A stretch of DNA of 64,000 nucleotides, from contig NC_134031.1 in NCBI RefSeq assembly GCF_964204645.1, positions 868,001-932,000 of the forward strand, written 5' to 3'. The notes below the pieces were generated by a model, which did not search any database, was not told the DNA's origin, and saw only the letters and a list, made by a program, of their open reading frames with translations. Shown piece after piece: positions 21,643 to 49,919 of this stretch. The stretch is from Tubulanus polymorphus (taxonomy: Eukaryota; Nemertea; Palaeonemertea; Tubulaniformes; Tubulanidae). The translations under genes and the position numbers were made by a program. Position 1 is the stretch's first letter. Every line of letters starts with the position of its first letter.

Positions 21643-22704
21643 TCAGATTTCATTCTCTACGTATTTCTTACCACGATGACAACTAAAACACAAGTTTCTA
21701 ATCGTATCTCTAAACACGGGTAATGTACGTAAGTATATAAAGAAATTTTTTCGGTAAACAAATTTACGCTGGCCGTATAACAAAACCGTGCATACAAAAT
21801 TGAATAGTCTCAAGCTACTATTGACAGATGCACTACGTGCAACAGTAACGAGGAAAGCGTATAATTCGTATGGAAAAACAACGACTACAAATATAAGGAT
21901 CGTATAAAACATGGTTTTATTTGCGCTATTTGAGATTGTAGTTCCAGTAGCTCTATTACGTATTCGGGCGGTTAGAGTCATTAGAACTAGAACCACTAAA
22001 CACGGCACCAAGCCTCGAAAAAAACTAATAATAGCACTAGAAAAAAGTCGAGCATCTCGACCTTTATTAGTATACGTGAGGAGGGTTTCACAACAAATTG
22101 TGTTATTTCCACATTTTCCGATAACAACAAGAACACCGCCATCGTTGAGACTGCAACTCACAAGGAACATTAGAAACACTACTACCCGTCTCCTTGAGTT
22201 AGTGACATGTTGTCGGTGAAAGAATGGCCACGCTATTGACAAATACCTCTCCACGGCGAGACCAACTACGATCCAATTTGAGAAACCCTCTGATAAATAG
22301 CGTGTAATATTTCCTAATATCATTATGCATCCTTTATCCGTGTTAATATTAATTATACGAGCGATCGATGCAATTTTTTTCAAAGGTATTGAACACTGGT
22401 TTCCCGTTAAATCTCCTCGATAATGAATTGTACAATCGATGTTTACTATGTTCAAATATAATCGAATAAAGGAAAGGGGAAATTGGGTCAAACTATTTAG
22501 CACATAGACACCGTCAGAAACAGCCATCGTAAATAGATACACGAAAGTCGCTCGAACTGAACGGAAATAACGACATTTGATCAGTGCAATGATCGTAAGA
22601 AAATTAAGCGCGAAAAACAGAGGATCAAAACTACACATTAACGCATCCATGGCATAATATATGTCCATCAAAATAGCAATTGCGTTCAGATTGGAATCCA
22701 TCAT
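21643..22704 (-). CDS. intronless rhodopsin-family GPCR, copy 2
   Basis: 353 residues in a single exon with the same seven-helix layout as copy 1: VERYLSIAWPFF after TM3, SDGVYVLNS in TM2, KNFFIY in TM7. It ends GKKYVENEI, which is probably close to the ancestral C terminus because no transposon is present. Differences from copy 1 cluster in the second extracellular loop (CGNNTICCETLLTYTNKGRDARL against CGNDTICCESLLVYSS..., shortened). That loop is the usual ligand-contact region. Family class A; ligand unknown. Confidence 0.87.
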   Translation of the reverse strand: MMDSNLNAIAILMDIYYAMDALMCSFDPLFFALNFLTIIALIKCRYFRSVRATFVYLFTMAVSDGVYVLNSLTQFPLSFIRLYLNIVNIDCTIHYRGDLTGNQCSIPLKKIASIARIININTDKGCIMILGNITRYLSEGFSNWIVVGLAVERYLSIAWPFFHRQHVTNSRRRVVVFLMFLVSCSLNDGGVLVVIGKCGNNTICCETLLTYTNKGRDARLFSSAIISFFRGLVPCLVVLVLMTLTARIRNRATGTTISNSANKTMFYTILIFVVVVFPYELYAFLVTVARSASVNSSLRLFNFVCTVLLYGQRKFVYRKNFFIYLRTLPVFRDTIRNLCFSCHRGKKYVENEI

Positions 22705-22772
22705 CAGATATTACGTGTGGTCTGTGGTAAACACCGTAGGTTTACCGATCGAGATTTAGATTACAAAGAAAA

Positions 22773-22916: not shown

Positions 22917-23044
22917 CCGAGCAGTAACACCACCTAATGGTGTATGTACTACGTGATAGTAGCGAACGTTAAACTGTTCAAGACACGTAATTCATGTAAT
23001 TAGTAATCGATACATCACAGATCTATGAAACCAATCCTCAATTT

Positions 23045-24963: not shown

Positions 24964-25244
24964 CTATCCGGAAACGATGTTAGGATGAACGGCTGTTATT
25001 GAAGTAATCGACCGTGGAGTGGCTGAACCAAAATCCGATTCAGAATCGGACATGTCTTCTGAATTGTCTTCTGTTGTGAATTCGTGTACTTTAGTTTGTT
25101 GGAACGGAGGTTTTTTCAGCAATCTGATTATCAGAAATATCGGTCCGATCAGAAGAACCAGAGCACCCATAGCAGAACCAACTGCAACTGCTATTACAGG
25201 GAATGCATCTACCGGTGCATCAGTAGCGGCGAGTGTGGTGATCA
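24964..25244 (-). CDS. receptor A: transmembrane helix and cytoplasmic tail
   Basis: VITTLAATDAPVDAF, then a helix of about 25 residues (VIAVAVGSAMGALVLLIGPIF...), then RLLKKPP as stop-transfer, then about 50 cytoplasmic residues with EDNSEDMSDSESD and ending at TAG (24964-24966). The tail has no tyrosine, so no ITAM or ITIM. The acidic Ser cluster fits casein kinase 2 sites. Confidence 0.9.
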
Positions 25245-28200
25245 CTGAAATATGATTATAACATAGTTTATACCTAGATGAGGAGGCTTCATTAGCCTTG
25301 CATCATTCAATGTTTCCAGTTTGAGAGAAAGTACAACATGCAGCACAAACGTTTTTATCACAAATAATTTTCACAAATAATGTTCTAGTTTACCTTTGGA
25401 AGTTGTCTGTTTAGAAATTGTTTCTGATGCGGTTGTTGATAATGTCGTAGTTGGCATAAGTTGCTTCAGTGTCCCGTAAACCTGAACCTCACAGACAGTA
25501 AGAGGGCTCCCGATAGAGTTCTGTTTCATCAACACGACATACCGACCTACAGCACCAGGTGGACATTCTATCAGCATAATCTGACCTTCTTTTAATTGAG
25601 AAATTGTGCCACAACTTGTGAAATTTCCAGGTTTTCTAGGTGTTGTTGGTGCTACAGTTGATCCATCTGTTGTAGTGGTATCATCATTAACAGTAGATGT
25701 TGCGCTAGAAGTTCCAGACGTTTGACCGGTGTTAGGATCAGTAGACGTTGTGACAGATGAACTTGAACTTGCTGTCGAGGTTAGATCTGATGCTGATGAT
25801 GATGTTGATGCTTCTGACAATGTTGTATCTTGTATTGAAGTCGGGCTTTCTATAAGCAAAACATCAGTGTTGTTTTCATTTACCTATCATTTACGAAGGC
25901 CCAAACAATTTCGAATTTTACGTTCAGAATAGAAACTGATACAGCTTAAGTAATAAGTGTCAATTGATTTCAAGGAACTACGGAGTTCGTAGAAGATTAC
26001 AAATAACCTCTTATAAACATAGGCAAATAATTTCCAAAGAGGAACTTTTTTTGCATCCAGTGCAGGTCATTACTGATGTAAAGGAAAAATGATAAGGAGG
26101 ATTATATTTTCCTCCTCCATGAGGACCTACCAGGAGATGTTGACGCGGTCTCTTCATCTATTGGGTTTATGTTGTACAGATCACTTGGTAAAAATTCATC
26201 CACGACAAAGATAGTAACGTTCGAAAAATCTGATCCTGAAAATGTACAAACATTCGGAATCTTGAGGACTGAAATATGTCGTGCCATAACGAATTAACGG
26301 AGCCAAATTAGAATTTTTGATATGTGTACCATAATTATCTGCGACATTTGTAACGACGACTTTCTCAACTTGATAAACATTCACCAGAAACACGGCCCAC
26401 CATTCAGTTCTGTGGACACCAGCAGTGCGAGAACATTTGGTATATTTGGATTCGATATTTCCATCAGTGGCCAAATCACTTGTTAAATTCGACGTTGTTG
26501 AACTTTGAGATGTCGATTTATTCAATGCCAAATTTTCTACAGTATTCTCTGGAAATTAAGAAAATTTGATGTTTTACTTAGGTTTCATATTTTCATCTAA
26601 ATAGACATTTTCAAAACGAACTTTTGAGGCCGTCTAATAAAAATGTTTGACAACCAATCGTTACAGTTCTAATCGTTACCACATTGACCTGACAAACTTA
26701 CAAACCCAGTCAATCACTACGACTCCGTGGTCCAGTGGTAAACACGCTCACCTGGTTTGCTAGCGGTCCCTGGTTCGAGTCCAGCTGGAGAGCTATAGCA
26801 ATTCTTTTTTGTGAAAATGATTGGAGGGAAATTTCCATTTGGGAATTTAGAACTGCCCCTGAAGATGCCTTAGATGGAGCTACCTGGAATTTAGCAATAC
26901 CTTTTGTGGCATTGTACACATATCCCGCTACTTCCACTTCACACAATACGATAGGATTAATTCGACTCCGTTTTACTATTGATAAATATCGGCCCCAGAT
27001 ATTCGGTTGGCATCGTGTTTCCTGAACCTCAGTTGTTACGTAGTTAGTCGCGGTATCCTGTGTACAGTAAAAGCGAGAAGTTCGGTTTGTGTCAGAGTCG
27101 TGCCATTTCGGAGACAACCATATCTCATAATCCGTTAGCCATACATCTGTAGAAAATAAAAGGAACTTATGCAGACAAAGTATGAAGCTTTTCTTAAGAA
27201 CAGACATTCAAACTTACTTCCAATGCCATCCGTATTTATTATAACAACTTGTTTGACTTTATATTCAATCTCAAGATCGACGCTCCACCATATCGTCTGT
27301 TCGTCCTCGTTAACGGTTATCATGGTGCAGCGTGACATATCGTAAACGCCATCGGCTGCCAGGTTTGATAGTTCTCCGCCCTCAGCGTGATCAGATTGTT
27401 TACAGTTTTTACCAACTGCAGCGTTCAGTACGACATCTGTAATGCAAGTTTTGTCACGATTTCTTTTTCTAATTCTTCGTGGTCATTTTCATTGATGCTA
27501 CGATTGAACTGCATTTCATCTTTAAAAAAACGTTAAATAAAGACCTCATACCTTTAGAGCATTTATCGATAATACAGAATTCCCAGCGTGATCCCGTAGT
27601 TTGATAACACCAGGGGAAATTTTCATCCAAACGTCGGCAGTAATTCTTTGCCGCTATGTGTGACTGTTCAGGAAAATCTTTCGATTTTGTATCGAATGGA
27701 TGCGATTGCGGTTTCTGTCTATTCCAACGTTGACATTTGTTTCCTTTTTCTGTCTGGCTTTGTGTTCCGTGATATTCGACGCCTTCTGATGTCCATACAC
27801 ATTCTTCCCCTGTTACCAGATAGATATTATAAAATGTTTTAAATTTAACATTAAGTTTTCATTTCAATTTTCTATAAATTGAGATACATCGATACTCTCC
27901 AACACCAAATGTGATTGGCAGAGTCTATTTTGTCACTCGTTTGATGGGATGCAAGGAAGGCTGTAACTAAAAGCACCTCGGATGGCTTTAGAGGTTGGTA
28001 CCGCTGGTTCCAATTAGCTGAAAATTAGGAACCAACGTGGTGGATAATCTCACTGATAAGAACAAGCCTATACCATAAAAGATACGACAAAAGATTTTAC
28101 CGAATGCTTCTGTTCCATAGATGTCTATTTCACAGATAACCAGTGGACTGGGATGAACTGGTTTGTAGACGAAAACATGCGATGCCATCACTGGTTTTAT

Positions 28201-31200
28201 GCATTTCACCTCCGTAACCGAGTCTGTAGAGATTGTTACGTCATCTGCGCATAATTTCAACTTGCCGGATGCTCGACTGGACGACACCTTTGCAGGCGCC
28301 AAGTCAACGAAATCGACCGAAGTGTAAATATGAATATCTTCTTGGGCTTTAAGCGGAAAATATAGAATACAATTTTATTCCCACAATTAAAAAGTAGAGG
28401 GGTCCGAATTGTTACTTGAGCAAATATGTCTATCAGGAAACATTTCTGACTCTTTTTTCCATTTATTGAAGGATTTGATATCATATATCTTTCAACACCG
28501 ACTCATTTAACAACCGTTTTATTGAATAAAGCTTAGAATACAATACATTTACCTCACACATTATGTCAGGATGTAAACGCCGCACATAATGATTGATACT
28601 CACTACAACAGTTTTCAGGTCCGAAGAATCGGATTTTTCGTACAAAATAAACCGCATGGTACAGATCTATAAACCAATATCTATCATGGCTAGTATAACA
28701 AGAGACAGGCGGAGGTGCTTTAGTTAATTCTACGGTTGCAGCGCGTTCTTTACGTGGTACTATTCCATCCAGCGCGAGATGTCCGCCATTTCTAACTGCT
28801 CTGAACGGCTGAACGGCTATATTACCTAAATCAAGATAACACAAGTCAAATTTTCGATGTTCTCTTTTCACAAAATGGGGATGATGATAACATTAGCTAG
28901 AGGCTCATGTAATTCGGGAGTTTGTGTTGCGATACTGTGGAGGTGCTTCCTACAGCTGCTAAAAGTATGATATATGAAATCCCACACTTACGTGTGTAAT
29001 GAAAAATGTAGTCCAAAATGCTCGTAGTATTCTTCAGGAATACTTAAGTTATGATAAATCACTAAGCAATCCTTTTCGGACTCTTTTTTCTTTTTGTTAG
29101 GATTTCAGATTATAGTTATATAACATGGACAGTGATTTTCGTCAATGCTTATCATAATGATATTACATATTTGACGTAAAAAGGCACTGTTACTTTTTAC
29201 TTCAGTTAGCTGTGTGCTTTGATGTCAAATGTGACGCCAGGTGCATACGTACCCCTGTATTTAGACTTCACGGTATAAACGGAACGTTGGAATGACCGCC
29301 CCGCAAGATGAGTCGCATGCATGTGTATCAGAGCTACAGTTTTACTGATGAATTACCTGTGTGTTTTGCGCTGTATATCTTCACTTCTCTAAAGACGAGT
29401 GCACGAGTTCTTGGTTGTGTGATTTTGACAAATTTACCTCGACGTATCGGGTTACAGGGTACCTTCCTAGTTTCCAGCGACCTCACAATATTATTTCCCT
29501 TGTCATCGAAACATAACTCGTAGTTTGAATTATCTTCTGATACATCGATTGTCCATTCCCACGACATACACGGCGCTAGTTCTATACAAATATTAGATAT
29601 TAGAATATTAAACAACTATTTCATATTGAGGCGGCCATCCTGGTCCATGCGCTTGTACGGCGGCCATCTTAGGTTCATGAACAAATGCGGCCATGTTGAC
29701 TCAAGCTTGGCTTCTGGTCATTTTGGCAAAATGTCAGTAGTTAAAGTCAAAATCATTTCGATATCATTGCATACATTCATCAAAATCCAAGAAGATAGTA
29801 AAATATATGTTAACGATATGAATGTTTTTTGCGATGCATTAATTTCACTGTCTGTAGTTTGATTATCGATGACTTACGTATCGGTTTTTCACAGTAATAT
29901 ATATGATCGCTGCCTGTACATGAAATATCGTTCCATCTGCCTCTTGAGTCTCTATTCGTCACACAATCTTCACCAGATTTATCGTTCGGTTCATCGTCAT
30001 CCCAGTTTAAGAAGCGCGGCTGAAATATGAATCTCAGCATCAGCTTCGAAATGATTATATATATTATACCACTGATTATACTGTACCGGTTTCGTGTCGG
30101 AATTCCAAACAAACTTATTTTCATCCTTGATATCATTTAATCCTATGGTAAAGCTATTCGAATTATCAGCTGCAATGAAAAAAAAATTAAACATCTTGGG
30201 TGAAAAATGGAATGAACTCTCAGTGAGTGCATGTTTTTTACCCAGGAAGTCTAGAGTACATTTTGTCTATGACGCCTCAATAGAGTATGAATTCGATTTA
30301 GGATTTTAAACGATTTCATGTTTAATTTACGGAAAGTAGATATGCTATAAAAAGAAGCGGGCGCCGAATATCGAGTCAAGTATAACATACCCTGAAGCCA
30401 TTTCCACGTCTCCCAGTTTCTAATTGTTATAAGTTGGCCTCCTTTCTTCTCACATTCAGTCCTGGCCTCATTAGCATTCAACAACTTCTTCGAAAATGAA
30501 GCCAAACACTTTTTATTACTGGGATCTAGTTTCCAGTCCGGATCGTTACCACATGGATAGTTGTCCAATTCTGTATTGAAACGGTCGACATAAAATAAAT
30601 AAGTTTCTAAAATGAATTATTTAAATTTTCTCTCTGCATGACTCATCGAAATCTACCAAAAAGTACAGTAAAACTGACCGCGGTGACGACCAACTCTTTT
30701 GATTAATTCGGACAAAATATTTCAACTTTGTAAAACGTATAATTCGATCATTATCTCGGCCGGTGTCCGGTGATTGGCTGAGTTAGGCGAGGTTTACTGT
30801 AAAAATCTAGTTTAGCTATACATTATATGATATAAAGTAGATGACAATCTTAGCAGTCGATCCAACGGAATAAAGACTCCAAAGTTTAATCATTAGTGAA
30901 CAAAACGACATCCTAGGTACGTAGATATTATGTCAGTCCTTGCCCATTCTGACGATAACAAATTTCCTCAATGTTTTGTATTATGCAATGTTCAAAATAG
31001 AAATATCTCACCATTGTTTGTACATACAGGCATCTGTATAGAGACCCATGCGACATCTATTGTAAATGCCAATTCAACTTTCCACCAATTAGGACGTATT
31101 GTGACCGTTCGTAACGTCATCGAAAATCGTGATAGAAAGTCTGGATGCACATCACCATCGATAGCATTATCAGCCTGATAATGCGAGTAAGTCGTGAATT

Positions 31201-34200
31201 GAGATGCTTTTCCGGTTACCGCAAAATTACCTTTGGGAAAATGAGCCATGAGATGCTGATGAAAATTTACCGACAAAGACCACAACTCATTGAAATTTGT
31301 CGACTAAACATAGGAATAAGAAAGTTTACACTTTTTGATCAACGCCACATCAGTCTGGTGAATTCCTTTATTGGAAATGTCGCTATGATATTTTCCTACA
31401 TGTGAAAACTAAAGAACGTAGCTAAATGAATACCTACCATCAAATGGGAGGCCATATACCTCAAGCTCAGCAAGATTCAGTGCTGCAGTAGGACCACTGA
31501 TATCCTCTATATAAACATATACATATCTACCAAGATTTCCACGCGTACAGTGCAGGATTAAAGCGTGATTTTTAGCTATTACTGTCGCTTTTTTATTCTG
31601 GTAGCACATTCTACAGTGATTGAAGTCAACAGTATTGAGATCCGGATGTCGATAGCAAACTGCAACTTTTTGATGAACGCTTCCAGCTAAAAATGATGTC
31701 GAGAATATGGTTTGATTAAAAATAAATAGGGAGGTACTATATCATTCTAAACCCAGACATGATAGGATATGTTAACCTAGTATAAATCCTGTTAACACGA
31801 AAAGTAGTCGTATGTGTATGAGAAATTACGAGCTTTCGCTGTTAGTGTAAACAGTAGGCAGGTAATTTGGCAGGTAAACGGGTAGTACTGTGTAGATGAT
31901 GCGAGGACGCCTTTGGATACTTATGCCTCTCGTAGCTTGATAGGGTAAATGAATTTTTATGAAACGCCCAGACAGAAATAACGAAAGATTTCTAATAAAA
32001 TCAGTTAACCTACAAAATACTACCTCTGTTTTTCACGTTAAATGATTCTACATGAAGTTCAGTGATTGTTTGTTGGAAAATCTAATAAATAGTTAACCTG
32101 TTCCACCCGACATTAGTTTTCCAATACCATTCGATCCTGTTATCAGAACAACAGTTTTGATATTGAACCAGCCAGAAAGATCGACTACAATGAAATCCAC
32201 GTTGCTGCTGCTGGACCCTGTATATTCCGTATCCCTCCGGCCGTCCAGCATCGGACTGACAACTGTTCCCGATTCTGGTCCGTACCATTGATCACCACCG
32301 ACCATTATTCTACGACCTAACGCGAGGTTTTCTGGAACAAGCAAAATTAAAGCAATGTAACCAACTTTGCTACAAATGCAGAACATATCATTAGAGGTCA
32401 TTAATACACAATACTATTATATTACAATCCCCATTCTTATTTATTGTTGTTTGAGTCATTTTATTTCGTTTTCTTTCCGTTTGTTTCTGTTTGCGGTGTT
32501 TATGATATTCTATGCAAATAAAGATGACAGTTTTAAACGTACATCCGGCGGGCACCAACTACTCACAACGATACAGCAGACTTAATCAACAGCCGAAATA
32601 GCTCAGTTGGGAGAGCGTTAGACTGAAGATCTAAAGGTCCCTGGTTCGATCCCGGGTTTCGGCAAATTCTTTTCCAAAAAGATGACTTGAATTATTTTAT
32701 AAGCTTTAATCTATATTCTCTTACCACCGATTAACGGGTTCCCATACACCTCTACCTCACATAGAGCTAGTCGAATCGACGGCTGATCCAGACCCTGTTG
32801 GATGACTACGTGTCGACCGATTTCATTGGTTAATATCAGAAAATTTTCGCCGAATCCTATGAGACCAGTTTTTCGGAAAAGGAATTTCACATCGAAGTCT
32901 GTTGGTTTTATTAGCTGTCCGTGAAACTCAGTAGTCAAATAACCCTCTAGGTACGACATTCTGTAGTCTGCAGATAAACAACAACATTACAGATACAAAC
33001 ATTTCATGTGATAAACTTCCCAAAATTCAAGGAATCTGATAGAATACGAATTCATAGAAATATTTGTCTTTTTCGATTTGTAGGATACAGATCCTCTTGG
33101 TCTGGTATCGCAGAGTGGGTAGTCAAGAGTAAATCTTCGACCTCAGTGACAAACACAATAGAAATAATTAAAAAAACTGTCGTAAAACTGACAAATTATT
33201 CTCGGAGATTATTTGCCCCAATTTCAATGAAATTCCACTCATGTATAAAAACGATTTATCTTTATTGGAAATCATCTAAATGTTTTCTCTTCCCTGAATA
33301 ATCTATAAAACAGAAAACAACTAAACCTGCGAGTGGAGTGGCGCTTGCGACGACGATTACTTTACGAATGTGATGTAGTTTCGCTAAGTCAACGTGCCAC
33401 CAATTCTGTTTCGCGTTATCAGAAACTGCACAGATTGAGTAGAAACTGTTATAATACGAATCAGGTTCAGTTTGTCGACTCGAATCGACGGCTAATGCGG
33501 GCACTAAATTTGCTTCATTGCCATTAACTCGGAATTGTGCAGACTTTCGAGCTGCTAAGTTTTCTGAAAATGAAGAAAAATCACTGGTTCGGTTATCAGT
33601 TATCAGTTATCCGATTTTTAAACTTCCACTAACAATAGGTTTGAAGGATAACTATGTTTTCCATCGGTGAAAGTAGTTATGAAGTTATTGCAATGAGCGC
33701 AGTTGAGGTTCGTACAAAAAACGGTATAGAGATAACGAACAATCCCATGTAAAAATAACGTAAGAGACAATGAAAATCCCATCATCGATGATTATAGCAG
33801 AGATTGATTTAGTGAGATTGTTCATAAGCTTCTAAACTGCGAATACATCAGTTTATGAAATAATCAAAATAAACATGGCGCTGATTTACCGAAACTATTT
33901 CGCGAATAAACTTCAACTTCACAGATGGAAAATCCGTATTTTTGTTTCGTTATTCGTCGAATGATGACGTAACGACCGGAAGCTTCAGATGTACAGATAA
34001 ACCTCGTGACTCGTCCCGTCACTAGTTCACCGACGTCACACAACGTGTAATTATCTGGATTCGCTTCTAATGCGTTTTGAAATAGATCCGTAACGATCAC
34101 CTCGACGTATTCGTTACTGAACGCTGAAAAAAACGTGCAGAAATTATAATTATTACATACAGTTGATCTGTCGCACAGCGCGTCATATTGGACGTCACTC

Positions 34201-36642: not shown

Positions 36643-37775
36643 TTTTCATAAAGAAATCTTCGTGATCCTTGGTGGCAGAACTTCACATAGCAAAATACAA
36701 AAACCAAATGTGTCGATCTTATATCACTAGGGCGACTGCGCAGTTCCTTATTTGGAATACCGGTCGAAAATTGATAACAGGAAAAATTATTCTTACGTAT
36801 TTTTAAACTTGCCGATGGCCTCCACGAGCATATTCTAATCTCTTTACTGCTGATCCTCCCCGAGGTGAGATCTTTATTCAAATAAATGCATGTATTGCGG
36901 GCTGTATAAAGCAAATTATCATTTTCGACGAGGAACCAAATACATTTTCTAAAACCTACGTTAAAAAGTCTACCAATCACTAATAGTCTCTTCAATAATA
37001 GTCTTTTTTCCTCCCATAAACACTTCTGAAAGATTATCAAATGCATACTACTATTGAATTCTAATGGTAAATAGTTCTATAATCTTCCCGTTTCATATTA
37101 CAAGGGTGAACATTCTATTCTTTCAATCTTCATTTCATGCTAGTTTCTTTATGTCCACGAGTAAAAACGATAGCAACAAGAAGAGTTGCGCAAACTGTTC
37201 GAGACTCGTAATTCATGTAATTAGTAACCAATACATCACAGATCTATGAAACCAATCCTCAACTTTTACCTTTTAATTGGTGTAAAAAAAAGTAACGTAT
37301 ATTTTGTAGTAAGTCGTGATTATATTTCATCTCTTTTAATCCATCGTACATCATTTACAAAATTATAGTTGTTCATACACAACTCGTATATTTCAAAACT
37401 CAAAAACATGTTTTGATGGAAGTATCTTAGTACAAATTGAAGCCAGACCAAGGCAGGTCGCGATAACCGATTCCAGATAACTCTTTAACTACCGCTTATA
37501 TCAGGTTAATAAACTATAACGATAATAATGATGATAATAATAATTATAATAATTGTTATTATAATTATTCATTCTCTAAGGGCAATCAATACAAAAACTC
37601 CGAACGAATTTCAATCAGTGCACTGTTCTAGAAAAGATAGAGCTTATTCTGGTCGAAACGAACGTACGAGAGGAGATCGGTAGAAACCTGCCGTATTGTA
37701 TGTGTGCGAATACAAATGTGAGTCTTATAAACACTTTTACAGTTGCTAGTGCTAGACGTGATTTTGGTTTTTTTT
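36643..37775. other. spacer between receptors A and B
   Basis: 36643-37190 is the 5' flank of receptor A, shared with copy B and with the relic at 23441-24000, and it probably contains the promoter. 37199-37345 matches DNA upstream of the GPCR genes (22978-23115 and, partly, 20345-20430). The rest is AT-rich with an (ATAATT)-type simple stretch near 37520-37565. Confidence 0.6.
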
Positions 37776-38056
37776 CTATCCGGAAACGATGTTAGGATGA
37801 ACGGCTGTTATTGAAGTAATCGATCGTGGAGTGGCTGAACCAAAATCCGATTCAGAATCGGACCAGTCTTCTGAATTGTCTTCTGTTGTGAATTCGTGTA
37901 CTTTAGTTTGTTGGAACGGAGGTTTTTTCAGCAATCTGAGTATCAGAAATATCAGTCCGATCAGAAGAACTAGAGCACCCATAGCAGAACCAACTGCAAC
38001 TGCTATTACAGGGAATGCATCTACTGGTGCATCAGTAGCGGCGAGTGTGGTGATCA
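37776..38056 (-). CDS. receptor B: transmembrane helix and cytoplasmic tail
   Basis: 281 nt including TAG at 37776-37778. The helix and tail nearly equal copy A (GLIFLILRLL, SEDWSDSESD for SEDMSDSESD). No tyrosine in the tail. Confidence 0.9.
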
Positions 38057-41000
38057 CTGAAATATGATTATAACATAGCTTATACCTAGATGAGGAGGCT
38101 TCATTAGCCTTGCATCATTCAATGTTTCCAGTTTGAAAAGCACCATGAAGATTTTATTAATGATCATTTCATTCGTACTCAAGCGTATATCTAAATTATT
38201 ATTTATTATTTTGGTGAATCTAATTTTAAGAAAGCGCGAAGATTCAGCATTCTAATGAGTCCTGGTTCTACACTCAGCGTTCTAATGAGTCCCAGTTCTA
38301 CACTCAGCGTTCTAATGAGTCCCAGTTCTACTCTCAGCGTTCTAATGAGTCCCAGTTCTACACTCAGCGTTCTAATGAGTCCCAGTTCTACACTCAGCGT
38401 TCTAATGAGTCCCAGTTCTACACTCAGCGTTCTAATGAGTCCCAGTTCTACACTCAGCGTTCTAATGAGTCCCAGTTCTACACTCAGCGTTCTAATGAGT
38501 CCTAATCCTACACTGAATTAATGAAGTCTTTTTGATAGTCTTTTCATATAATCTTTTTAGATTTACCTGTGAAGGTTGATTCTGATGCGGTCGCTGATAA
38601 TGTCGTAGTTGGCACAATTTTCTTTAGTCTCGTGGTTGTTGATAATGTCGTAGTTGGCATAAGTTGCTTCAGTGTCCCGTAAACCTGAACCTCACAGACT
38701 GTAAGAGGGCTCCCGATAGCGTTCTGTTTCATCAACACGACATACCGACCTACAGCACCAGGTGGACATTCTATCAGCATAATCTGACCTTCTTTTAATT
38801 GTGAAATAGAGCCGCAAGTTGTAAAATTTCCAGGTTTTCTAGGTGTTGTTGGTGCAACAGTTGATCCATCTGTTGTCGTGGTATCAGCATCGTTAACAGT
38901 AGATGTTGCGCTAGAAGTTCCAGACGCTTGACCGGTGTTTGGATCAGTAGACGTTGTGACAGATGAACTTGAACTTACTGTCGAGGTTAGATCTGATGCT
39001 GATGATGATGTTGATGCTTCTGACAATGTTGCATCTTTTATTGAACTCGAGCTATCTATAAAAAAACATCAGTTTTGTATTTTGCGTCAAAGTTTGTTGC
39101 AGCTTAACCTTATACAAACATAACTGATTTTTAAGTGGATTATTTCCATAAGGAATTTGTTTGCGTAAAGTGCAGGTCAATATTGGTGTGAAGAAAAAAT
39201 AGTCAGAAAAAAAAGAAAAAAAAGCAGGATGACATTGTCCTCCTCGGGAGGACCTACCAGTAGATGTTGAAGTGGTCTCTTCGTCTATTGGGTACAAGTC
39301 GTACAGATCACTTGGTAGAAATACATCCACGACAGAAATAGTAACATTGAAAAAATCCGATCCTAAAAAAATGTACAAATATTCGAAATCTAAATTCTAC
39401 AAATATTCGATATTCAAATAACTGAACTACGAAGAGCCATAACGATCTTACGGAGGCACATTTGATTTAATTTTTGATATGTGTACCATAATTATCTGCG
39501 ACATTTGTAACGACGACTTTCTCAACTTGATAAACATTCACCAGAAACACGGCCCACCATTCAGTTCTGTGGACACCAGCAGTGCGAGAACATTTGGTAT
39601 ATTTGGATTCGATATTTCCATCAGTGGCCAAATCACTTGTTAAATTCGACGTTGTTGAACTTTGAGATGTCGATTTATTCAATGCCAAATTTTCTACAGT
39701 ATTCTCTGGAAATGAAGAAAATTTGATAGATAATCTACTTTTGACTAGTACTGCTATCTTAATAAGCTAGGGTTCTTTTGTGAAAATCTTTTGAGAGAAA
39801 TCCCCTGGCCTCTCCAGTCGTGAACTAAGAACTGCTCTTGAAGATCCCTTGGATGGAACCACCGAAAAAAGCAATACCTTTTGTGGCATTGTACACATAT
39901 CCCGCTACTTCCACTTCACACAATACGATAGGATCAATAATTTGACTCCGTTTTACTATTGATAAATATCGGCCCCAGATATTCGGTTGGCATCTTGTTT
40001 CCTGAACCTCAGTTGTTACATAGTTAGTCGCGGTATCCTGTGTACAGTAAAAGCGAGAAGTTCGGTCTGTGTCGGAGTCGTGCCATTTCGGAGACAACCA
40101 TATCTCATAATCCGTTAGCCATACATCTGTAGAAAATAAAAGGAACTTATGCAGACAAAGTATGAAGCTTTTCTTAAGAACAGACATTCAAACTTACTTC
40201 CAATGCCATCCGTATTTATTATAACAACTTGTTTGACTTTATATTCAATCTCAAGGTCGATGCTCCACCATATCGTCTGTTCGCCCTCGTTAACGGTTAT
40301 CATGGTGCAGCGTGACATATCGTAAACGCCATCGGCTGCCAGGTTTGATAGTTCTCCGTCCTCAGCGTGGTCAGATTGTTTACAGTTTTTACCAACTGCA
40401 GCGTTCAGTACGACATCTGTAATGAAAGTTTTGTCACAATTTCTTTTTCAAATTCTTCGTGGTCATTTTCAGTTATGCTACGATTGAACTGCATTTCATC
40501 TTTAGAAAACATTAAAGACCTCATACCTTTAGAGCATTTATCAATAATACAGAATTCCCAGCTAGATCCCGTAGTTTGATAACACCAGGGGAAATTTTCA
40601 TCCAAACGTCGGCAGTAATTCTTTGCAGCTATGTGTGACTGTTCAGGAAAATCTTTTGATTTTGTATCGAATGGATGCGATTGCGGTTTCTGTTTATTCC
40701 AACGTTGACATTTGTTTCCTTTTTCTGTATGGCTTTGTGTTCCGTGATATTCGACGCCTTCTGATGTCCATACACATTCTTCCCCTGTTACCAGATAGAT
40801 ATTATAAAATGTTTCAAGTTTAATATGATGTTTCCATTTCAATTTTCTGTACATCAAAGCCCTCCAACCCCAAATGTGATTGGCAGAGTCTATTTTGTCA
40901 CTCGTTGATGGGAAGGATGCCTGGAAGGCTGTATCTAAAAGCACCTAAGATGGCTTTAGGTTGTATGTCAAAGCTTCTGGGATGGTATTAGGTGTTAGTA

Positions 41001-44000
41001 CAATGCTCCAATCAGTGAAGAATTAGGAACCAACATGGCGCATATTCCCATTGATAGTAAATGATACGACAAAAGATTTTACCGAATGCTTCTGTTCCGT
41101 AGATGTCTATTTCACAGATAACCAGTGGACTGGGATGAACTGGTTTGTAGACGTAAACATGCGATGCCATCACTGGTTTTATGCATTTCACCTCCGTAAC
41201 CGAGTCTGTAGAGATTGTTACGTCATCTGCGCATAATTTCAGCTTGCCGGATGCTCGACTGGACGACACCTTTGCAGGCGCCAAGTCAACGAAATCGACC
41301 GAAGTGTAAATATGAATATCTTCTTGGGCTTAAAGCGAAAAGAAAACATTCGACCACAAAAACAAGTAGTGAGGTCCGAAATGTTTCTTTGAGCAAATAT
41401 GTCTACCAGGAAACATTTCGGAGTCGTTATATCATCATTAAAACATCGACACAGAACGTTTCATCGAATATAGGTTAAAATACGATGCGTTCAAATCACT
41501 TCAGGATGTAAACGCCGCACATAATGATTGATACTCACTACAACAGTTTTCAGGACCGAAGAATCGGATTTTTCGTACAAAATAAACCGCGTGGTACAGA
41601 TCTATAAACCAAAATCTATCATGGCTAGTATAACAAGAGACAGGCGGAGGAGCTTTAGTTAATTCTACGGTTGTAGCGCGTTCTTTACGTGGTACTATTC
41701 CATCCAGCGCGAGATGTCCGCCATTTCCAACTGCTCTGAACGGCTGAACGGCTATATTACCTAAATCAAGAAAGCACATGTCGAACTTTCATTATTTTTT
41801 TAACTACAGAATTAAAAGGAACTTAAGCAAGAGCATGGACGTAAAAGAGTCCGTGGCTAGAGGGACATGATGTAAGCATTTAAATGAAGAGGCTTCGTTG
41901 CGATAGTGCGGAACCCCAGTAGAGTGAGTTTGTGGCTCGACCAATGGCTTCCTGGAATAGACGTGAAATGGTTCCCAAATTGTGACGTTTTACTTCAGTT
42001 ATCCGCGTGCTTTGACGTCAAATATGACATATGACGTCAGTTGCACCGTCTTCCCGCAAGATGAGTCGCATGCATGTGTATCAGAGCTACAGTTCTACTG
42101 ATGAATTACCTGTATGTTTTGCGCTGTATATCTTTACTTCTCTAAAGACGAGTGCACGAGTTCTTGGTTGTGTGATTTTGACGAATTTACCTCGACGTAT
42201 CGGGTTACAGGGTACCTTCCTAGTTTCAAGTGACTTCACAGCATTATTTCCCTTGTCATCGAAACATAACTCGTAGTTTGAATTATCTTCTGATACATCG
42301 ATTGTCCATTCCCATGACATACACGGCGCTAGTTCTATACAAAATGAATTGGGTCATCTCGACCATCTTGCACTTGGCCATCTTGGGTTCATTCACGTAT
42401 GCGGCGATGTTGGTTTTAATCACATCATGCAAGAATTCGGCAATGTATCAGTGGCTAAGGCTCAAATGATTTTGCCGAGTTATTGCGTCTATTCTCAAAA
42501 ATCCAAGATGCCAGTTTTAATCCAAATCCGAAATCCAAGATGGCCATCCTGGTCCATGCGCATGTTAGGCGGCCATTTTGGGTTCATGAACAAATGCGGC
42601 CATGTTGATTCAAGCTTGGCTTCTGATCATTATGGCAAAATATCAGTAGTTAAAGTCCAAATCATTTCGCTATATCATTGCATACATTCATCAAAATCCA
42701 AGAAGGTGGCCAAATATATGTTAAAGATATGAATGTTTTTGCGAGGCATTAATTTCACTGTCTGCAGTATGTTATTATTAATGACTTACGTATTGGTTTT
42801 TCACAGTAATATACATGATCGCTGCCTGTACATGGAATATCGTTCCAACTGCCTCCTTGAAAATTCGTCACACAATCTTCATTATTTTTATCGTTCGGTT
42901 CACCGTTGTTCCAGTTAATGAATCGTGCCTGTAATGTGAATCTAAGCAAAACTATTCCTATCAGCTTAGTAAAGATTATATATGTATCGTTCATATTGTA
43001 CCGGTTTTGTTTCGGAATTCCAAACAAACTTATTTTCATCCTTGATATCATTTAATCCTATGAGATAGCTTCTCGAATTTTCGGCTGCAATGAAAAAATT
43101 ATACATCGTGGGTCAAACATGGAATACTCAGTGGATGCTGGTCGGTGAAATTGTTTACCTACAGCGGGCGCCACTTTATCTATGACGCCCCAATATTTGT
43201 GTTGAATTCGATACTGGATTTAAGACGACGCCTTGTTGAACCTTCGAAATTTCATGTTTATTTCACGGAAAGCAAATATCATAAATACAGTAAAAATCAA
43301 ATAGCGAGTCATTTAAATCATAAGTACCACATCTACATGTACAACATACCCTGAAGCCATTTCCACGTCTCCCAGTTTCTAATTGTTATAAGTTGGTTTC
43401 CTTTCTTCTCACATTCAGCCCTGGCCTTATTACCATTCAGCGCCCTCTTCAGAATAGAAACCAAACACTTTCTATTACCAGGATCTAGTTTCCAGTCCGG
43501 ACCTTTACCACATGGATAGTTATTCAATTCTGTATGGAAATGGTCGATATAATGTAAAGCTTTTAATTATTGCGATGTTCGTGTGTTTTCTGCCTTATTC
43601 ACTATGATTTGCCGAACAGTAGAATACAGTAAAGCTGAACTTTTAGTGATTCGGACAAAAATTGAATCATATTCTGACTTCCGATTGGATCGTCGGATAG
43701 TCGCTTATCTCAGACCCAATTTAATCGGTTTCCATTCGTTGGATGAGTTAGGTGAGGTTGACTGTAAATCTAGTTTAGAAGTCGGAAGTACTCTTAGCGT
43801 TCAACGTAATAAATATCTTAAAGATTTTAAAGGTAGAAATTCTGTGAACAAGAAAACAACCAGAAGCAGCTACTATGGATTTAATCACCATCAGATATCT
43901 CACCATTGTTTGTACATACAGGCATCTGTATAGAGACCCATGCGACATCTATTGTAAATGCCAATTCAACTTTCCACCAATTAGGACGTATTTTGACCGT

Positions 44001-47000
44001 TCGTAACGTCATCGAAAATCGTGATAGAAAGTCTGGATACGCATCACCATCGATAGCATTATCAGCCTGATAATGCGAGTAAGTCGTGAATTGAGATGCT
44101 TTTCCGGTTACCGCCAAATTACCTTTGGGAAAATGAACCATGGGATGCTGATGAAAATTTACCGACAAAGATTATAATGATTCGAAATGTATCGAGTACA
44201 ATGAGGACTTGGAAATAAAAAGATGACGCATTTTGATTGATGCGACATCATTAACGTTGATCTCTGTATAAGAAAAGTTGTAATGTTTTCTCCTACATAT
44301 AAAACTAAAGAATGTAACTAAATAAATACCAACCATCAAATGGGAGGCCATATACCTCAAGCTCAGCTAGATTCAGTGCTGCAGTAGGACCACTGTTATC
44401 CTCTATATAAACATATACATATCTTCCAAGATTTCCACGCGTACAGTGCAGGATTAAAGCGTGATTTTTAGCAATTACTGTCGCTTTTTTATTCTGGTAG
44501 CACATTCTACAGTGATTGAAGTCAACAAAGTAGAGATCCGGATGTCGATAGCAAACTGCAACTTTTAGATGAATACTTCCAGCTACAATAAAAAAACGAG
44601 GGGGTTTGATGTATATTGAATAAATACGGAAAAAAAGATAGTACATTCATATCAGGTAAACAATCGTACAAAACGCCAAAGCAGGTAATACTATGTAGAC
44701 TACTTAATGTTGTTGGATATAACGAGCTAGGGCAGTGTCCTTCCTGATACCAGGGAAAACTGTCTGGAGCTCCTCGATTCCTACGACCGCCGTGAATCCC
44801 AAAGTTCACGGCATTCCATTGACAAACGTGTTAGATGTTTTCCTACGCATGATTTGTGGAAAAGCGTATTTCTGTTGTGGGCACTCACCCGATGGTCTGT
44901 GATCGTCATACATACTCTTGGCCCAGTTTCCTGAGAAGTTATTGGTGGTCACTACATCATCACTCCACATAGTTGTACCATGCACTCTGCCTTGTCTCTG
45001 TACCTTACTGTATACGTGCGCTGTTTCATTGAACGCTTCACGCTTGGCAATTACTTCCACTTAGCCTTCTTCGAGAGCGTGTTAGCTTTACTGGCCTTAA
45101 GTTCTCTCACCTCAACTGTCATCCTATCAGCGTGCTTTATCCTGTTCCTAACCCTGGCATGTTTTACCGCTCTTCTGACCTTGGAGACTATATGTTTACT
45201 CCTGAATGAGTAGTTGAAACTCCCATACCTTTATTTGGTATTCTTCCCTGTGATTGAGGTAAGGGTCAGGCGTTGATCACTATCCATCACTTTTTCATCC
45301 ACTGTTGGCAACTAACATGCAACATTAGTTGGCCCATAGCTGGGGACAAGATTGGTGAGTGATTGGAATAATCAGACTGATCAAAGGTGAGTGCCAGGGC
45401 ATGCTGTCCAGTGCCAGTGGGCCATGCACATCACGGCTTTAGGTCTCAGCTTGCTCCGAAGGCAAATGAGTCCTTGATGGAGCTGTATTATATTTACTAA
45501 TAGCCAAATCTTGTAATTTCGAATAAAATCAGTTTAACCACAAAGTACTACCTGTTTTCACGTTTAAATGATTTGAAATGGAATCAATGGTTTTATTTTG
45601 GAATATCTGATTATCTAGATAGTTAACCTGTTCCACCCGACATTAGTTTTCCAATACCATTCGATCCTGTAATCAGAACAACAGTTTTGATATTGAACCA
45701 GCCAGAAAGATCGACTACAATGAAATCCACGTTGCTGCTGCTGGACCCTGTATATTCCGTATCCCTCCGGCCGTCCAGCATCGGACTGACAACTGTTCCC
45801 GATTCTGGTCCGTACCATTGATCACCACCGACCATTATTCTACGACCTAACGCAAGGTTTTCTGGAACAAGCAACATAAAGCAATGTTATAACCATTCTA
45901 ATTTCAATAACTTCTCGTCACGATCATTGTATGATTTATTGAATGAATATTATATGTGTGTAGTGGTCAGCGATTACTCACAACGATACGACATAGCAAT
46001 TCAATTCAAATATATTTAATCACCAGCCGAAATAGCTCAGTTGGGAGAGCGTTAGACTGAAGATCTAAAGGTCCCTGGTTCGATCCCGGGTTTCGGCAGG
46101 TGCGCATATTTTTTGTCATGTTGCCTTCTCTTTTGATACATGTAAATCGTGTTTCAAATTTTTTTCTGAATCGAAATACTGTCAAATGTCGGTATTCTCT
46201 TACCGCCGATTAACGGGTTCCCATATACCTCTACTTCACATAGAGCTAGTCGAATCGACGGCTGATCCAGACCCTGTTGGATGACTACGTGTCGACCGAT
46301 TTCATTGGTTAATATCAGAAAATGTTCGCCGAATCCTATGAGACCAGTTTTTCGGAATAGGAATTTCACACCGAAGTCTGTTGGTTTTATTAGCTGTCCG
46401 TGAAACTCAGTAGTCAAATAACCCTCTAGGTACGACATTCTGTAGTCTGCAGATAAAAATCGACATAGATACATTCATTTCATGTGATAATCTGATAGAA
46501 TTCTATTTCATAGAAATGCGTATCGTTCTATATACTCAAAAATGGCAACACACTTGTAAATTTCATCGACTCGGTATCATAGACATTAAAGTTACCCTAA
46601 ATACACCCCTGACCTCAACCTGGGCACGGTTTCATAGACAGGATACCAAAGTTACCCCGAGGGATACATCCTCAACCAGGGTGACAACCAATATAGTAAC
46701 AATGAGAAGCTATTGTAGTAATTGAGACGAATTTCCAAATTTCCCACTCATTAACATAACGCCTTCCACTCCTCCCTCCCATGTGAATGAAACACAGCCA
46801 AGGGACGCACGAAACCCTTTAGATGAAACCTAAAACTAATTGAAAAATAGATATATTCCCGTCGTACGTAATCTAAACGATTTCGTTACGTATTTGGATA
46901 TGTCCAAATTAACTCCAGAAAATCTACTAAACGAAAAACAACTAAACCTGCGAGTGGAGTGGCGCTTGCGACGACGATTACTTTACGAATGTGATGTAGT

Positions 47001-49919
47001 TTCGCTAAGTCAACGTGCCACCAATTCTGTTTCGCGTTATCAGAAACTGCACAGATTGAGTAGAAACTGTTATAATACGAATCAGGTTCAGTTTGTCGAC
47101 TCGAATCGACGGCTAATGCAGGCACTAAATTCGATTCATTGCCACCGACTCGGAATTGTGCAGACTTTCGAGCCGCTAAGTTTTCTGAAAATGAAGAAAA
47201 AATCACTGGTTCAGTTATCTGATTCTTAACCTTCCACTGAAAATAGGTTTAATGTATACTGATGACTATGTTTTCCATCATTGAAAGAATTTGCGAAATG
47301 ATTGCAATGAGCACAGTTGTGAGGGAGGTCGTGCAAAAACGGCATGGAAGATAATGAACGAACACAATCTGAAGTTCATTTTTGTCCGACAGTTTCGAGA
47401 TTTATTAAATCCCATTTTCACAGAAATCTTCAGAGAAAACAGTAATGAATATTGCTTTATAGAAATTCAAAAAGCGAAAATTGAAAAAAAAGCAAAAATT
47501 CGATTATTCCGTGATGAAACGAAGTCGCTTGGCTCAGTAGAAAATAAACATGGCGCTGATTTACCGAAACTATTTCGCGAATAAACTTCAACTTCACAGA
47601 TTGAAAATCCGTATTTTCGTTTCGTTATTCGTCGAATGATGACGTAACGACCGGAAGCTTCAGATGTACAGATAAACCTCGTGACTCGTCCCGTCACTAG
47701 TTCACCGACGTCACACAACGTGTAATTATCCGGATTCGCTTCTGCTGCGTTTTGAAATAGATCCGTAACAATCACCTCGACGTATTCGTTACTGAACGCT
47801 GAAACAAACGTGCGGAAATTATAATTATTACTTACCAGTTGATCTGTCGCACAGCGCGTCATATTGGACGTCACTCAACTAATTCCACCGCACGTGACGC
47901 AGGGAAACCCTCGGAAACATGTTTCTGTTTCCATGTTTCCATGCATCGTGTGCGTTGAGCTTTTAGAAAAATCAACAAGTCAGTGGGCAAAACAATAATT
48001 GTGACATGAATCACCGCAGTCAAACGTAATATTGGCCGTCACTTATTACTTGAATCAGTCACTCGTACTTAAGGCCATTGTGACAACACTATTGCATCAC
48101 GTGCATACAGGGTCAAGAACTTACCATTCTGACGAGCTAAAACGAGCACTTCTCTGATATCATACGATTCACCTAGATCCAGATACCACCAGGCCCAATC
48201 CCACCAATCAGGTTTAGCCTCAGAACACGAGTACGGTTTCGAGAACGCTTCCGGTTCGTGGCGACCATCGATTGCTAGTTCCGGTCCCATGTTCGATGTG
48301 GATACAGGCGCCATGTACGCTTTTGTAAACAAATTTATGTTTTCTGAAATAATTCAATACATTTCAATAAGTATAGATATATTTAAAGGAATCGTGATAA
48401 CCCGGTGTAACAGTAAACGTGAAAACTAGTAGTATTTTGTAAGTTTACTGAAAACATATAGTTTTCGTGTGCTAGTGCACAGAGTAGCTTTATCGGGTAA
48501 ATGATGGGATTTTGATGAACGAAAGAAGCTCGTATTTCTAATAAGGTCAGTTAACCTACACAGTTATCTTTTTTTCAATCCTTATTATCTGTTGTTTATC
48601 ATTAACGCAAATTATTAATATAGATTCATAGTTTAATATTACATTCAACTTTGTACTATTTCTTAAGTAACATTTTGTAAATTATTTTTAGTAGCAAATA
48701 AACTGTTTATGTACTTGCTAATAATGTCAAAAGACTTAAGCATATTTTTATACTGTATATAAAATTGTTTTTTCGTTAATATAGCTACTTATAACCTACA
48801 CAGTTCTACCTGTCTGCTCGCTTATTGATTAGATTTAAATTTCTAACTATTCAATTGTCTGTTGATCGTTGAATAAATTACCTCCAGTTTGTTTTGAATT
48901 GAGCTGCGGTGCTGAAATAGATGGCACACGAAGGAATTGAGAAAAACAAGAATTAATTCCATTTTACGAGTAAAAATGAATGCGATTTTCCTTTCCGCTT
49001 ACATTTCAATGTATAGATCCAGTTCCACCAGTTTCGTGAATCAGGAAATGCGATAGGAATGGATGGGTATAACAAACAAGAACCAGTTCTTGCATCATTT
49101 CTAATTGCAGACAGAAATGCTTTACACCTTGGAACCTCATTACATTTCAGTTCACACTTATCGAACGTCAAAGAGTTATATTTCCCTAGATGTCGCGAGT
49201 TAGTGTGCCTGCGATGTGCGGTGTAGTGTGATCTTAGCTCTAAATAGAAGAGAATGTATAGTAAAAATGGGCAAAGGATCTTTACCCCGAGTGAAACGGA
49301 ACTGACTTGATTGTAATTACCTCTTTTATTAAACAGCTTTAGATGATTTCGTAGATGGGGATTGCTGCATCTCGGCGCGCTTTTAATCAAACATTTCGTG
49401 TCGAAAGTAAGAAATAGATCGCATCGACTTTCAATATCGCAATAATAACGACATTGATCTGGAGTATCAACTATTTTCCTATATAAATCTTTCGCGAAGC
49501 AGTCACCTTTAACAAGTCGCGAGTATCCAGCAAAATAGTTAGCTAAATAGAAATACACGAAATTCATTCAGTTCGATTTTAAAGAAATCAACACAGTTTT
49601 GTCGAGATCTATAAAACTGATTAATAAATGTTCAATCGAGTTACGAATTAGACGTTTTTGTGACATTGTGGCCTACATTTTACACAATTACACTTCCATA
49701 CGTATATCATCAATTAAATAATCAACTATAAACAAACAAACTTTATTTATGTATCGATTCATTATACTGTATGTATGGCTTACGAACATAAGATATACAT
49801 ATACCACTACTATATAATCGAAATATTCGACAGTAAGACAACTTACAATCTAAACTGACTCCATTTTCCACGATGATTAAAGCTATGAACGAATGAATCG
49901 CGAATAATAAGTTGTTCAT
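37776..49919 (-). CDS. PAN/FTP/C-type lectin/kringle receptor B (gene span)
   Basis: Tandem paralogue of receptor A. It has the same 24 exons, phases and module order and sums to 5112 nt (1703 codons plus stop) with no internal stop. Length differences are confined to PAN1 (minus 2 codons), the third C-type lectin exon (minus 1), the FTP6 second half (plus 1) and the Ser/Thr exon (plus 11). Most exons are nearly identical to A, whereas PAN1, PAN2 and the C-type lectin exons differ visibly. Introns have picked up separate insertions (30-bp array, about 0.7-kb insert). As both frames are intact, both copies are probably functional type I membrane proteins. Confidence 0.88.
38250..38517. repeat. 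30-bp tandem repeat array
   Basis: Nine copies of a 30-bp unit containing TCTAATGAGTCCCAGTTCTA, with only a few substitutions at the ends. It lies in the receptor B intron between the Ser/Thr exon and the transmembrane exon. The corresponding intron of A (25245-25393) lacks it. It reads open on the plus strand as a 10-residue repeat only because 30 is divisible by three. Confidence 0.95.
38567..39705 (-). CDS. receptor B: FTP domain 7 with Ser/Thr-rich insertion, three exons
   Basis: Exons 39487-39705, 39258-39362 and 38567-39055. The middle exon is diverged (FFNVTISVVDVFLPSDLYDLYPIDEETTSTSTG). The Ser/Thr exon is 33 nt longer than in A, partly through a repeated PTTTLS unit in the stalk. 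Confidence 0.87.
39878..40416 (-). CDS. receptor B: FTP domain 6, two exons
   Basis: Exons 40198-40416 and 39878-40126. One codon longer than A before IVLCEVEV (RSQIIDPIVL). Confidence 0.88.
40527..40784 (-). CDS. receptor B: kringle domain
   Basis: 258 nt, phase 1-1, six cysteines intact. Differs from A by a few residues (SHTEKG, WNKQKP, GSSWEFC). Confidence 0.92.
41083..41760 (-). CDS. receptor B: FTP domain 5, two exons
   Basis: Exons 41539-41760 and 41083-41328, same lengths as A and nearly identical protein. Confidence 0.85.
42110..42334 (-). CDS. receptor B: FTP domain 4, second half
   Basis: 225 nt, phase 1-1, nearly identical to copy A (NNAVKSLETRK for NNIVRSLETRK). Confidence 0.82.
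42790..43529 (-). CDS. receptor B: nested C-type lectin domain, three exons
   Basis: Exons 43350-43529, 43002-43084 and 42790-42928. DPGNRKCLVSILKRALNGNKARAECEKKGNQLITI...FINWNNGEPNDKNNEDC...GSWNDIPC. EPN and WND are kept. The acidic DDDEPN loop of copy A is NNGEPN here, next to the sugar site, so specificity may differ. Confidence 0.9.
43904..44122 (-). CDS. receptor B: FTP domain 4, first half
   Basis: 219 nt, phase 1-1: GNLAVTGKASQFTTY...NAIDGD...PNWWKVELAFTIDVAWVSIQ. Followed, as in copy A, by C-type lectin exons. Confidence 0.82.
44334..45861 (-). CDS. receptor B: FTP domain 3, two exons
   Basis: Exons 45628-45861 and 44334-44582, same lengths as copy A. The AELEVYG change is shared. 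The intron between the two halves is 1045 bp, against 411 bp in A, because of a B-specific insertion. Confidence 0.86.
44650..45500. mobile_element. B-specific insertion in the FTP3 intron
   Basis: The FTP3 intron of B is about 630 bp longer than in A. The extra DNA has open stretches on both strands (e.g. minus 44806-45060), unlike the AT-rich intron around it, and is more GC-rich. It looks like a piece of a transposable element; the family was not recognised. Confidence 0.45.
46026..46098 (+). tRNA. tRNA-Phe (GAA), second copy
   Basis: Identical over all 73 nt to the gene at 32592-32664, in the same intron and orientation of receptor B. The flanks are largely different between copies. A TTTTTT terminator lies about 10 bases downstream. 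Confidence 0.96.
46204..47184 (-). CDS. receptor B: FTP domain 2, two exons
   Basis: Exons 46948-47184 and 46204-46446, same lengths as copy A. The first half reads FRVGGNESNLVP where A reads FRVNGNEANLVP; the second is nearly identical. Confidence 0.88.
47565..48343 (-). CDS. receptor B: FTP domain 1, two exons
   Basis: Exons 48125-48343 and 47565-47798, same lengths as copy A. Almost identical protein (PVSTSNMG for PLSTSNMG, AAEANP for ALEANP). Confidence 0.88.
48882..48911 (-). CDS. receptor B: 30-nt linker microexon
   Basis: Same length, phase and near-identical sequence as 35477-35506 in copy A. Confidence 0.68.
49003..49239 (-). CDS. receptor B: PAN/apple domain 2
   Basis: 237 nt, phase 1-1: YTAHRRHTNSRHLGKYNSLTFDKCELKCNEVPRCKAFLSAI...GSCLLYPS...WNWIYTLKC. 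Many amino-acid differences from copy A lie outside the Cys framework. Confidence 0.85.
49321..49542 (-). CDS. receptor B: PAN/apple domain 1
   Basis: 222 nt, phase 1-1: NYFAGYSRLVKGDCFAKDLYRKIVDTPDQCRYYCDIESRCDLFLTFDTKCLIKSAPRC. The second half differs strongly from copy A (LTFDTKCLIK against ILHPSTGKCYIK), including a two-codon gap. Confidence 0.82.
49847..49919 (-). CDS. receptor B exon 1: signal peptide
   Basis: Same leader as receptor A (MNNLLFAIHSFIALIIVENG...), 73 nt, ending in phase 1 at GTAAGT. Confidence 0.82.

Follow-up and report, generated by a model that had tools for sequence, protein, structure and literature searches.

Paired mosaic lectin receptor genes in the nemertean Tubulanus polymorphus with a C-type lectin domain predicted to lie within an F-type lectin domain

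A 64-kb window (the whole stretch of DNA analysed; G000:C7:868001-932000) of the 268-Mb genome of Tubulanus polymorphus carries a tandem pair of genes, g1 and g2, both on the minus strand, which encode predicted type I membrane proteins composed of PAN, FTP (F-type lectin), C-type lectin (CTLD) and kringle modules. The CTLD is nested, as judged from sequence and exon structure, in the fourth FTP domain, at the loop that matches the fucose-binding loop of eel agglutinin, and the divergence between the copies is concentrated in the PAN, CTLD and mucin exons.

Results

Gene structure and module order

The two genes were modelled by a region-trained, splice-aware procedure followed by manual correction against the sister copy; exons of 52 and 42 nt in the automatic model were discarded, as the other copies are without them. 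Gene g2 extends from 49919 to 37776 (24 exons, 1703 aa) and g1 from 36642 to 24964 (24 exons, 1694 aa), neither with an internal stop, in exact agreement with the bounds and the unbroken frames of 1694 and 1703 codons given in a preliminary description of this DNA. All introns are GT-AG and in phase 1, with the sole exception of a phase 0 intron between exons 13 and 14 (the second and third CTLD exons). A protein search of the genome identified a third copy, g3 (G000:C7:7971345-7999613, plus strand), located 7 Mb away on the same chromosome, which is complete (1688 aa) and possesses 24 exons with the order and phases of g1 and g2. That three copies have kept the entire exon order strongly indicates a single gene rather than several, as had been proposed, and not an outcome of chance or of joining. 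While the exon joins were drawn from genomic sequence, it is exceedingly improbable that several separate genes were joined by eye: the frame is unbroken and the phases are consistent in three copies, each with one start exon and one terminal exon encoding the transmembrane (TM) helix and stop, and FTP4 and FTP7 become complete domains only once their flanking exons are joined.

A Pfam scan of full-length g1 returned matches to F5_F8_type_C_2 (82.8 bits), F5_F8_type_C (73.2), Lectin_C (51.3), Kringle (48.5) and PAN_1 (24.1), all above the curated cut-offs, thereby bearing out the domain families that had been named for this protein. No Pfam match to CCP, EGF, Ig or protease domains was obtained in full-length g1, nor was any sushi match found at an E value of 0.01. 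Among solved proteins, a profile of the FTP repeats gave FBP32 (E 4e-35) and eel agglutinin (1K12; E 9e-24) as its first matches, both of them F-type lectins, and FTP is therefore the right name for these repeats. Hydropathy analysis revealed a single signal-like hydrophobic stretch at the N-terminus and a single TM helix towards the C-terminus, which, together with the Pfam modules, upholds the view of a type I membrane protein built of recognition modules. The order from the N-terminus is signal peptide-PAN-PAN-FTP1-FTP2-FTP3-(FTP4 N-half-CTLD-FTP4 C-half)-FTP5-kringle-FTP6-(FTP7 N-part-Ser/Thr-FTP7 C-half)-stalk-TM-tail. The modules listed in the preliminary description are thus all present, but the CTLD does not stand beside an FTP domain as had been stated, being placed inside FTP4, and the count of seven FTP domains is right only when FTP4 and FTP7 are counted as split domains.

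Nesting of the CTLD in FTP4

Every FTP domain is encoded as two halves separated by a phase-1 intron, and alignment placed all seven exon junctions, at slightly different residues, within RGD-CC-G-ER(IS) of eel agglutinin, the CDR4 loop of this lectin, in which two of the three residues that contact fucose are located (PMC5712786). The three CTLD exons (12-14) form a symmetrical 1-1 cassette positioned in the mid-domain intron of FTP4. With the CTLD in place, the two halves of FTP4 of g2 match F5_F8_type_C separately (E 0.0034); when it was removed in silico, leaving exon 11 joined to exon 15, residues 10-130 aligned to positions 5-113 of the 127 of the profile (E 9.8e-5). Similarly, the Ser/Thr-rich segment interrupts FTP7, in a later loop than the mid-domain junction, and its removal raised the FTP7 match from 28.6 to 36.5 bits and rendered it full-length. 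In the simplest history, a phase-1 cassette would have entered the mid-FTP intron; recombination at this position has been reported for oyster bindin, in the intron that divides each FTP domain midway (PMC5712786). If so, the arrangement clearly exemplifies how exon shuffling through a mid-domain phase-1 intron can place one lectin domain at the ligand loop of a second.

Predicted binding sites and cytoplasmic tail

The fucose-binding triad (motif HX24RXDX4(R,K)) was scored at the positions aligned to His52, Arg79 and Arg86 of eel agglutinin; a strict regular expression of the published motif, in the form written, is not satisfied even by eel agglutinin and was therefore set aside. None of the seven FTP domains keeps the His-Arg-Arg triad, FTP1 alone retaining Arg at position 79, which makes fucose binding by the usual route unlikely. 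The CTLD, whose best solved match is the macrophage mannose receptor (E 6e-20; MBP also aligned), retains both EPN and WND in g1, g2 and g3, and the loop between these motifs varies among the three in length and sequence. Lysine-binding kringles possess an anionic centre of Asp55 and Asp57 together with Trp62, an aromatic residue at position 64, Arg71 and Trp72 (plasminogen K4 numbering). The kringle, with plasminogen as its best match (E 1e-44 over five kringles), reads LDENFPWCY...(R/S)WEFC, in which the first Asp and the Trp residues are kept, the second Asp is Asn, and the Arg is Ser in g2. Owing to the loss of the FTP triads and the partial retention of the lysine site, the CTLD is the sole clear predicted sugar site, its EPN and WND motifs being those of a mannose-type, Ca2+-dependent C-type lectin. 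The earlier assertion that each module binds sugars or proteins is, as worded, not supported in view of the seven missing triads and the partial kringle site. No tyrosine follows the TM helix, and the tail is therefore expected to lack ITAM/ITIM-type signalling of its own, which sets the receptor apart from immune receptors of that type.

Divergence between the copies

Comparison of g1 with g2 revealed FTP and kringle exons, termed the scaffold here, that are 97% identical (synonymous divergence, dS, 0.057; nonsynonymous divergence, dN, 0.014), while the PAN exons are 64% identical (dS 0.371, dN 0.240), the CTLD exons 76% (dS 0.167, dN 0.144) and the mucin exons 84%. The excess over the scaffold is significant for PAN (synonymous p 2e-11, nonsynonymous p 8e-44) and for the CTLD (synonymous p 0.005, nonsynonymous p 1e-21), and since it extends to synonymous sites, age matters and not only protein constraint. 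Relative to g3, the synonymous divergence of the scaffold (0.30) is close to the intron divergence of 25% where alignable, the neutral expectation. Between g1 and g2, in contrast, only 50% of intron bases can be aligned and 17% of these differ, as against approximately 6% of scaffold synonymous sites, and exons adjoining diverged or unalignable introns are 96-100% identical. Introns so much more diverged than the scaffold synonymous sites fit exon homogenisation, and the data suggest an old duplication after which the scaffold exons may have been homogenised one by one, unlike those of the PAN, CTLD and mucin segments. A mutational hot spot in the PAN exons was ruled out, as the inferred g3 branch carries no synonymous excess there (approximately 0.19 in PAN and 0.27 in the scaffold).

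The main alternative, that g1 and g2 are recent duplicates and that g1 acquired its PAN segment (and in part its CTLD) from a donor, either a divergent allele or a paralogue since lost, is doubtful but deserves serious weight. Gene g1 is indeed the outlier in PAN, with 63 unique sites compared to 24 in g2 and 34 in g3, and exon 1 and its immediate 5' flank are near-identical in g1 and g2. However, the introns far from PAN and the CTLD are also diverged (50% alignable, 83% identity), which requires an old duplication, and a protein search of the genome found no donor. Three sequences lacking an outgroup cannot settle the order of events, i.e. homogenisation or replacement of the g1 PAN, and, as they carry no topology, a sister relationship of the PAN regions of g2 and g3 is not claimed.

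The scaffold synonymous divergence of approximately 6% would also fit the general heterozygosity range of marine invertebrates, as expected if g1 and g2 were two alleles that the assembly falsely presents as a tandem duplication. This is very improbable given that the g1-g2 homology stops a few bases from the stop codon and approximately 370 bp upstream of the start, that intron interiors are unalignable, unlike those of two haplotypes, and that the independent copy g3 attests to duplication in the family.

The introns of the pair contain two further features. A tRNA-Phe (GAA) gene is located in intron 8 of both g1 (32592-32664, plus strand) and g2 (46026-46098, plus strand), antisense to the host gene, the two being 98.8% identical to each other; no tRNA was found when looked for in g3. 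Additionally, a tandem repeat in intron 23 of g2 (38209-38517, minus strand) reads GLIRTLSVEL repeatedly and is not among the reading frames of g1.

Discussion

Proposed function

It is proposed, with a probability of roughly 0.55, that g1, g2 and g3 encode paralogous type I membrane recognition or adhesion receptors that operate as follows. The seven FTP jelly-rolls and the kringle would constitute a long rigid scaffold, raised on a stalk rich in Ser/Thr and anchored by one TM helix, with the FTP domains themselves having lost fucose binding. The distal PAN pair may serve as a first binding station, for protein or glycan contact away from the membrane, while the Ca2+-dependent mannose-type CTLD would be a second station protruding laterally from the CDR4 loop of FTP4. 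Each paralogue may have its own ligand preference through PAN and the CTLD, as these exons remain distinct among the copies, whereas gene conversion acting exon by exon putatively maintains the similarity of the scaffold. Because the tail is devoid of a tyrosine motif, clustering, adhesion or a partner protein would convey ligand binding. The concentration of divergence in PAN and the CTLD fits a recognition role in general, favouring none of immunity, allorecognition and gamete contact over the others, and, set against the constant scaffold, points to the surfaces that would carry specificity, a prediction that is testable. The module architecture, the nesting as read from sequence and exons, the lost fucose residues, the retained EPN and WND motifs and the uneven divergence are observed directly; the ligands, the surface location, gene conversion as the cause and any role in immunity are inferred.

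Several points weigh against this proposal. Gene models, domains and divergence were all read from one genome assembly, and the nesting is deduced from sequence and exon phase. Furthermore, dN/dS between g1 and g2 is approximately 0.65 for PAN and 0.86 for the CTLD, neither exceeding 1, and relaxed constraint could thus explain the amino-acid part of their divergence.

The nearest described transmembrane proteins with a CTLD and an F5/8C domain are Drosophila Furrowed (CG9095) and Tribolium TcCTL15 (selectin-like CTL-X), which, like the receptor described here, are single-pass membrane proteins with CTLD and F5/8C-FTP modules (PMC9954269, PMC5712786) and function in cell-surface recognition and adhesion, the role predicted here. 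Furrowed combines its CTLD with a single FTP/F5-8C domain, CCP repeats and a TM segment, and TcCTL15 carries eleven CCP repeats along with one F5/8C domain (PMC9954269); no PAN or kringle is reported for the Furrowed type, whereas the present receptor has seven FTP domains, two PAN domains, one kringle, no CCP repeat and a CTLD nested in an FTP domain. It shares the combination of CTLD, F5/8C and TM helix but has PAN and kringle modules in place of a CCP array, and is therefore not filed under Furrowed/TcCTL15. A developmental or tissue adhesion molecule like Furrowed, with no immune role and with PAN and CTLD differences reflecting subfunctionalised adhesion partners, is a tentative alternative. 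Furrowed and TcCTL15 act in adhesion and development, and also in bacterial binding (PMC9954269), and the tyrosine-free tail would suit such a molecule; on the other hand, CCP repeats and the Furrowed order are absent from the receptor, and strong divergence focused on two recognition modules exceeds what housekeeping adhesion would need.

The F-type lectins, i.e. eel agglutinin, striped bass FBP32 and oyster bindin, belong to the same domain family and occur as tandem repeats, in bindin also with each FTP domain interrupted midway by an intron (PMC5712786). The receptor has the F-type fold without the fucose triad in any of its seven domains, and neither bindin nor the fish lectins share its character as a membrane mosaic that includes PAN, kringle and CTLD. 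Moreover, bindin is secreted and its FTP domains are diversified at the fucose face, whereas here the FTP exons are conserved and a TM helix is present. This bears on whether the genes encode a highly polymorphic allorecognition or gamete-recognition receptor with PAN and CTLD cassettes under diversifying selection. Three paralogues with PAN and CTLD exons diverged on a near-constant scaffold, the EPN-WND loop differing in length among them, would be in keeping with this, as would the gamete lectin bindin, whose diversity arises through recombination in the corresponding mid-FTP intron (PMC5712786); yet there are only three copies, overall dN/dS is below 1, and bindin varies in its FTP domains, the constant part here, so that this alternative is decidedly unlikely. 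A diversified self/non-self family, in which polymorphism would be maintained in the PAN pair and the loop-grafted CTLD and gene conversion would preserve a constant scaffold, is likewise an unlikely, speculative extension; if true, specificity would evolve modularly and the exchange of phase-1 exon cassettes could create new specificities.

As to the remaining modules, the mannose receptor family and mannose-binding C-type lectins share the EPN and WND Ca2+/mannose residues, but in contrast to the mannose receptor family there is a single CTLD here, with neither a fibronectin II domain nor a CTLD array. Plasminogen and HGF also combine a PAN-type module with kringles, while the present protein has one kringle, no serine protease domain and a membrane anchor.

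Novelty of the architecture

A literature search found no paper describing FTP, CTLD, kringle and PAN in one protein, in line with the preliminary description, which knew of no named family with this module order. The term 'undescribed' reaches as far as this literature search, and it is likely that relatives exist unnoticed in other species. Genome-wide, 125 kringle matches were detected, and clusters of kringle and C-type lectin matches are situated at G000:C2:3823388-3842438, C2:10617470-10622461, C11:7578619-7635229 and C9:13546701-13554183. Kringle and CTLD genes thus seem to have been expanded and shuffled in this genome, and since such matches cluster elsewhere, module shuffling would be general in this lineage, which makes the present combination less surprising. 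Mosaic membrane lectins are, furthermore, common in invertebrates.

Other features of the window

The exons of both genes are listed in Table 1.

Table 1. Exons of g2 and g1 and the domains they are predicted to encode (window positions)
Feature	Positions	Strand	Basis
g2 exon 1: start codon and signal peptide	49847..49919	-	gene model, hydropathy
g2 exon 2: PAN1, highly diverged between copies	49321..49542	-	
g2 exon 3: PAN2, highly diverged between copies	49003..49239	-	
g2 exon 4: 10-aa linker, conserved in g3	48882..48911	-	
g2 exons 5-6: FTP1	47565..48343	-	
g2 exons 7-8: FTP2	46204..47184	-	
g2 exons 9-10: FTP3	44334..45861	-	
g2 exon 11: FTP4 N-terminal half	43904..44122	-	
g2 exons 12-14: CTLD (EPN, WND), 1-1 phase cassette nested in FTP4	42790..43529	-	
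g2 exon 15: FTP4 C-terminal half	42110..42334	-	
g2 exons 16-17: FTP5	41083..41760	-	
g2 exon 18: kringle	40527..40784	-	
g2 exons 19-20: FTP6	39878..40416	-	
g2 exons 21-22: FTP7 N-terminal part	39258..39705	-	
g2 exon 23: Ser/Thr-rich segment, FTP7 C-terminal half, stalk	38567..39055	-	
g2 exon 24: TM helix, tyrosine-free cytoplasmic tail, stop	37776..38056	-	
g1 exon 1: start codon and signal peptide	36570..36642	-	
g1 exon 2: PAN1	36008..36235	-	
g1 exon 3: PAN2	35588..35824	-	
g1 exon 4: linker	35477..35506	-	
g1 exons 5-6: FTP1	33890..35003	-	
g1 exons 7-8: FTP2	32725..33563	-	
g1 exons 9-10: FTP3	31438..32331	-	
g1 exon 11: FTP4 N-terminal half	31012..31230	-	
g1 exons 12-14: CTLD nested in FTP4	29878..30570	-	
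g1 exon 15: FTP4 C-terminal half	29357..29581	-	
g1 exons 16-17: FTP5	28101..28825	-	
g1 exon 18: kringle	27552..27809	-	
g1 exons 19-20: FTP6	26901..27436	-	
g1 exons 21-22: FTP7 N-terminal part	26131..26548	-	
g1 exon 23: Ser/Thr-rich segment, FTP7 C-terminal half, stalk	25394..25849	-	
g1 exon 24: TM helix, tail, stop	24964..25244	-	

The region upstream of g1 (approximately 36677-37391) resembles two stretches downstream of g1, at about 22971-23954, with 66-78% identity, and is perhaps a dispersed repeat or a remnant of the upstream region of a further copy. Two intronless reading frames for rhodopsin-family G protein-coupled receptors (18939-20108 and 21646-22710, both on the minus strand) adjoin the receptor pair. 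Additionally, reading frames with laminin-G and EGF matches at 57549-58292 and 58538-58921 (plus strand) are probably exons of a gene for a large extracellular protein.

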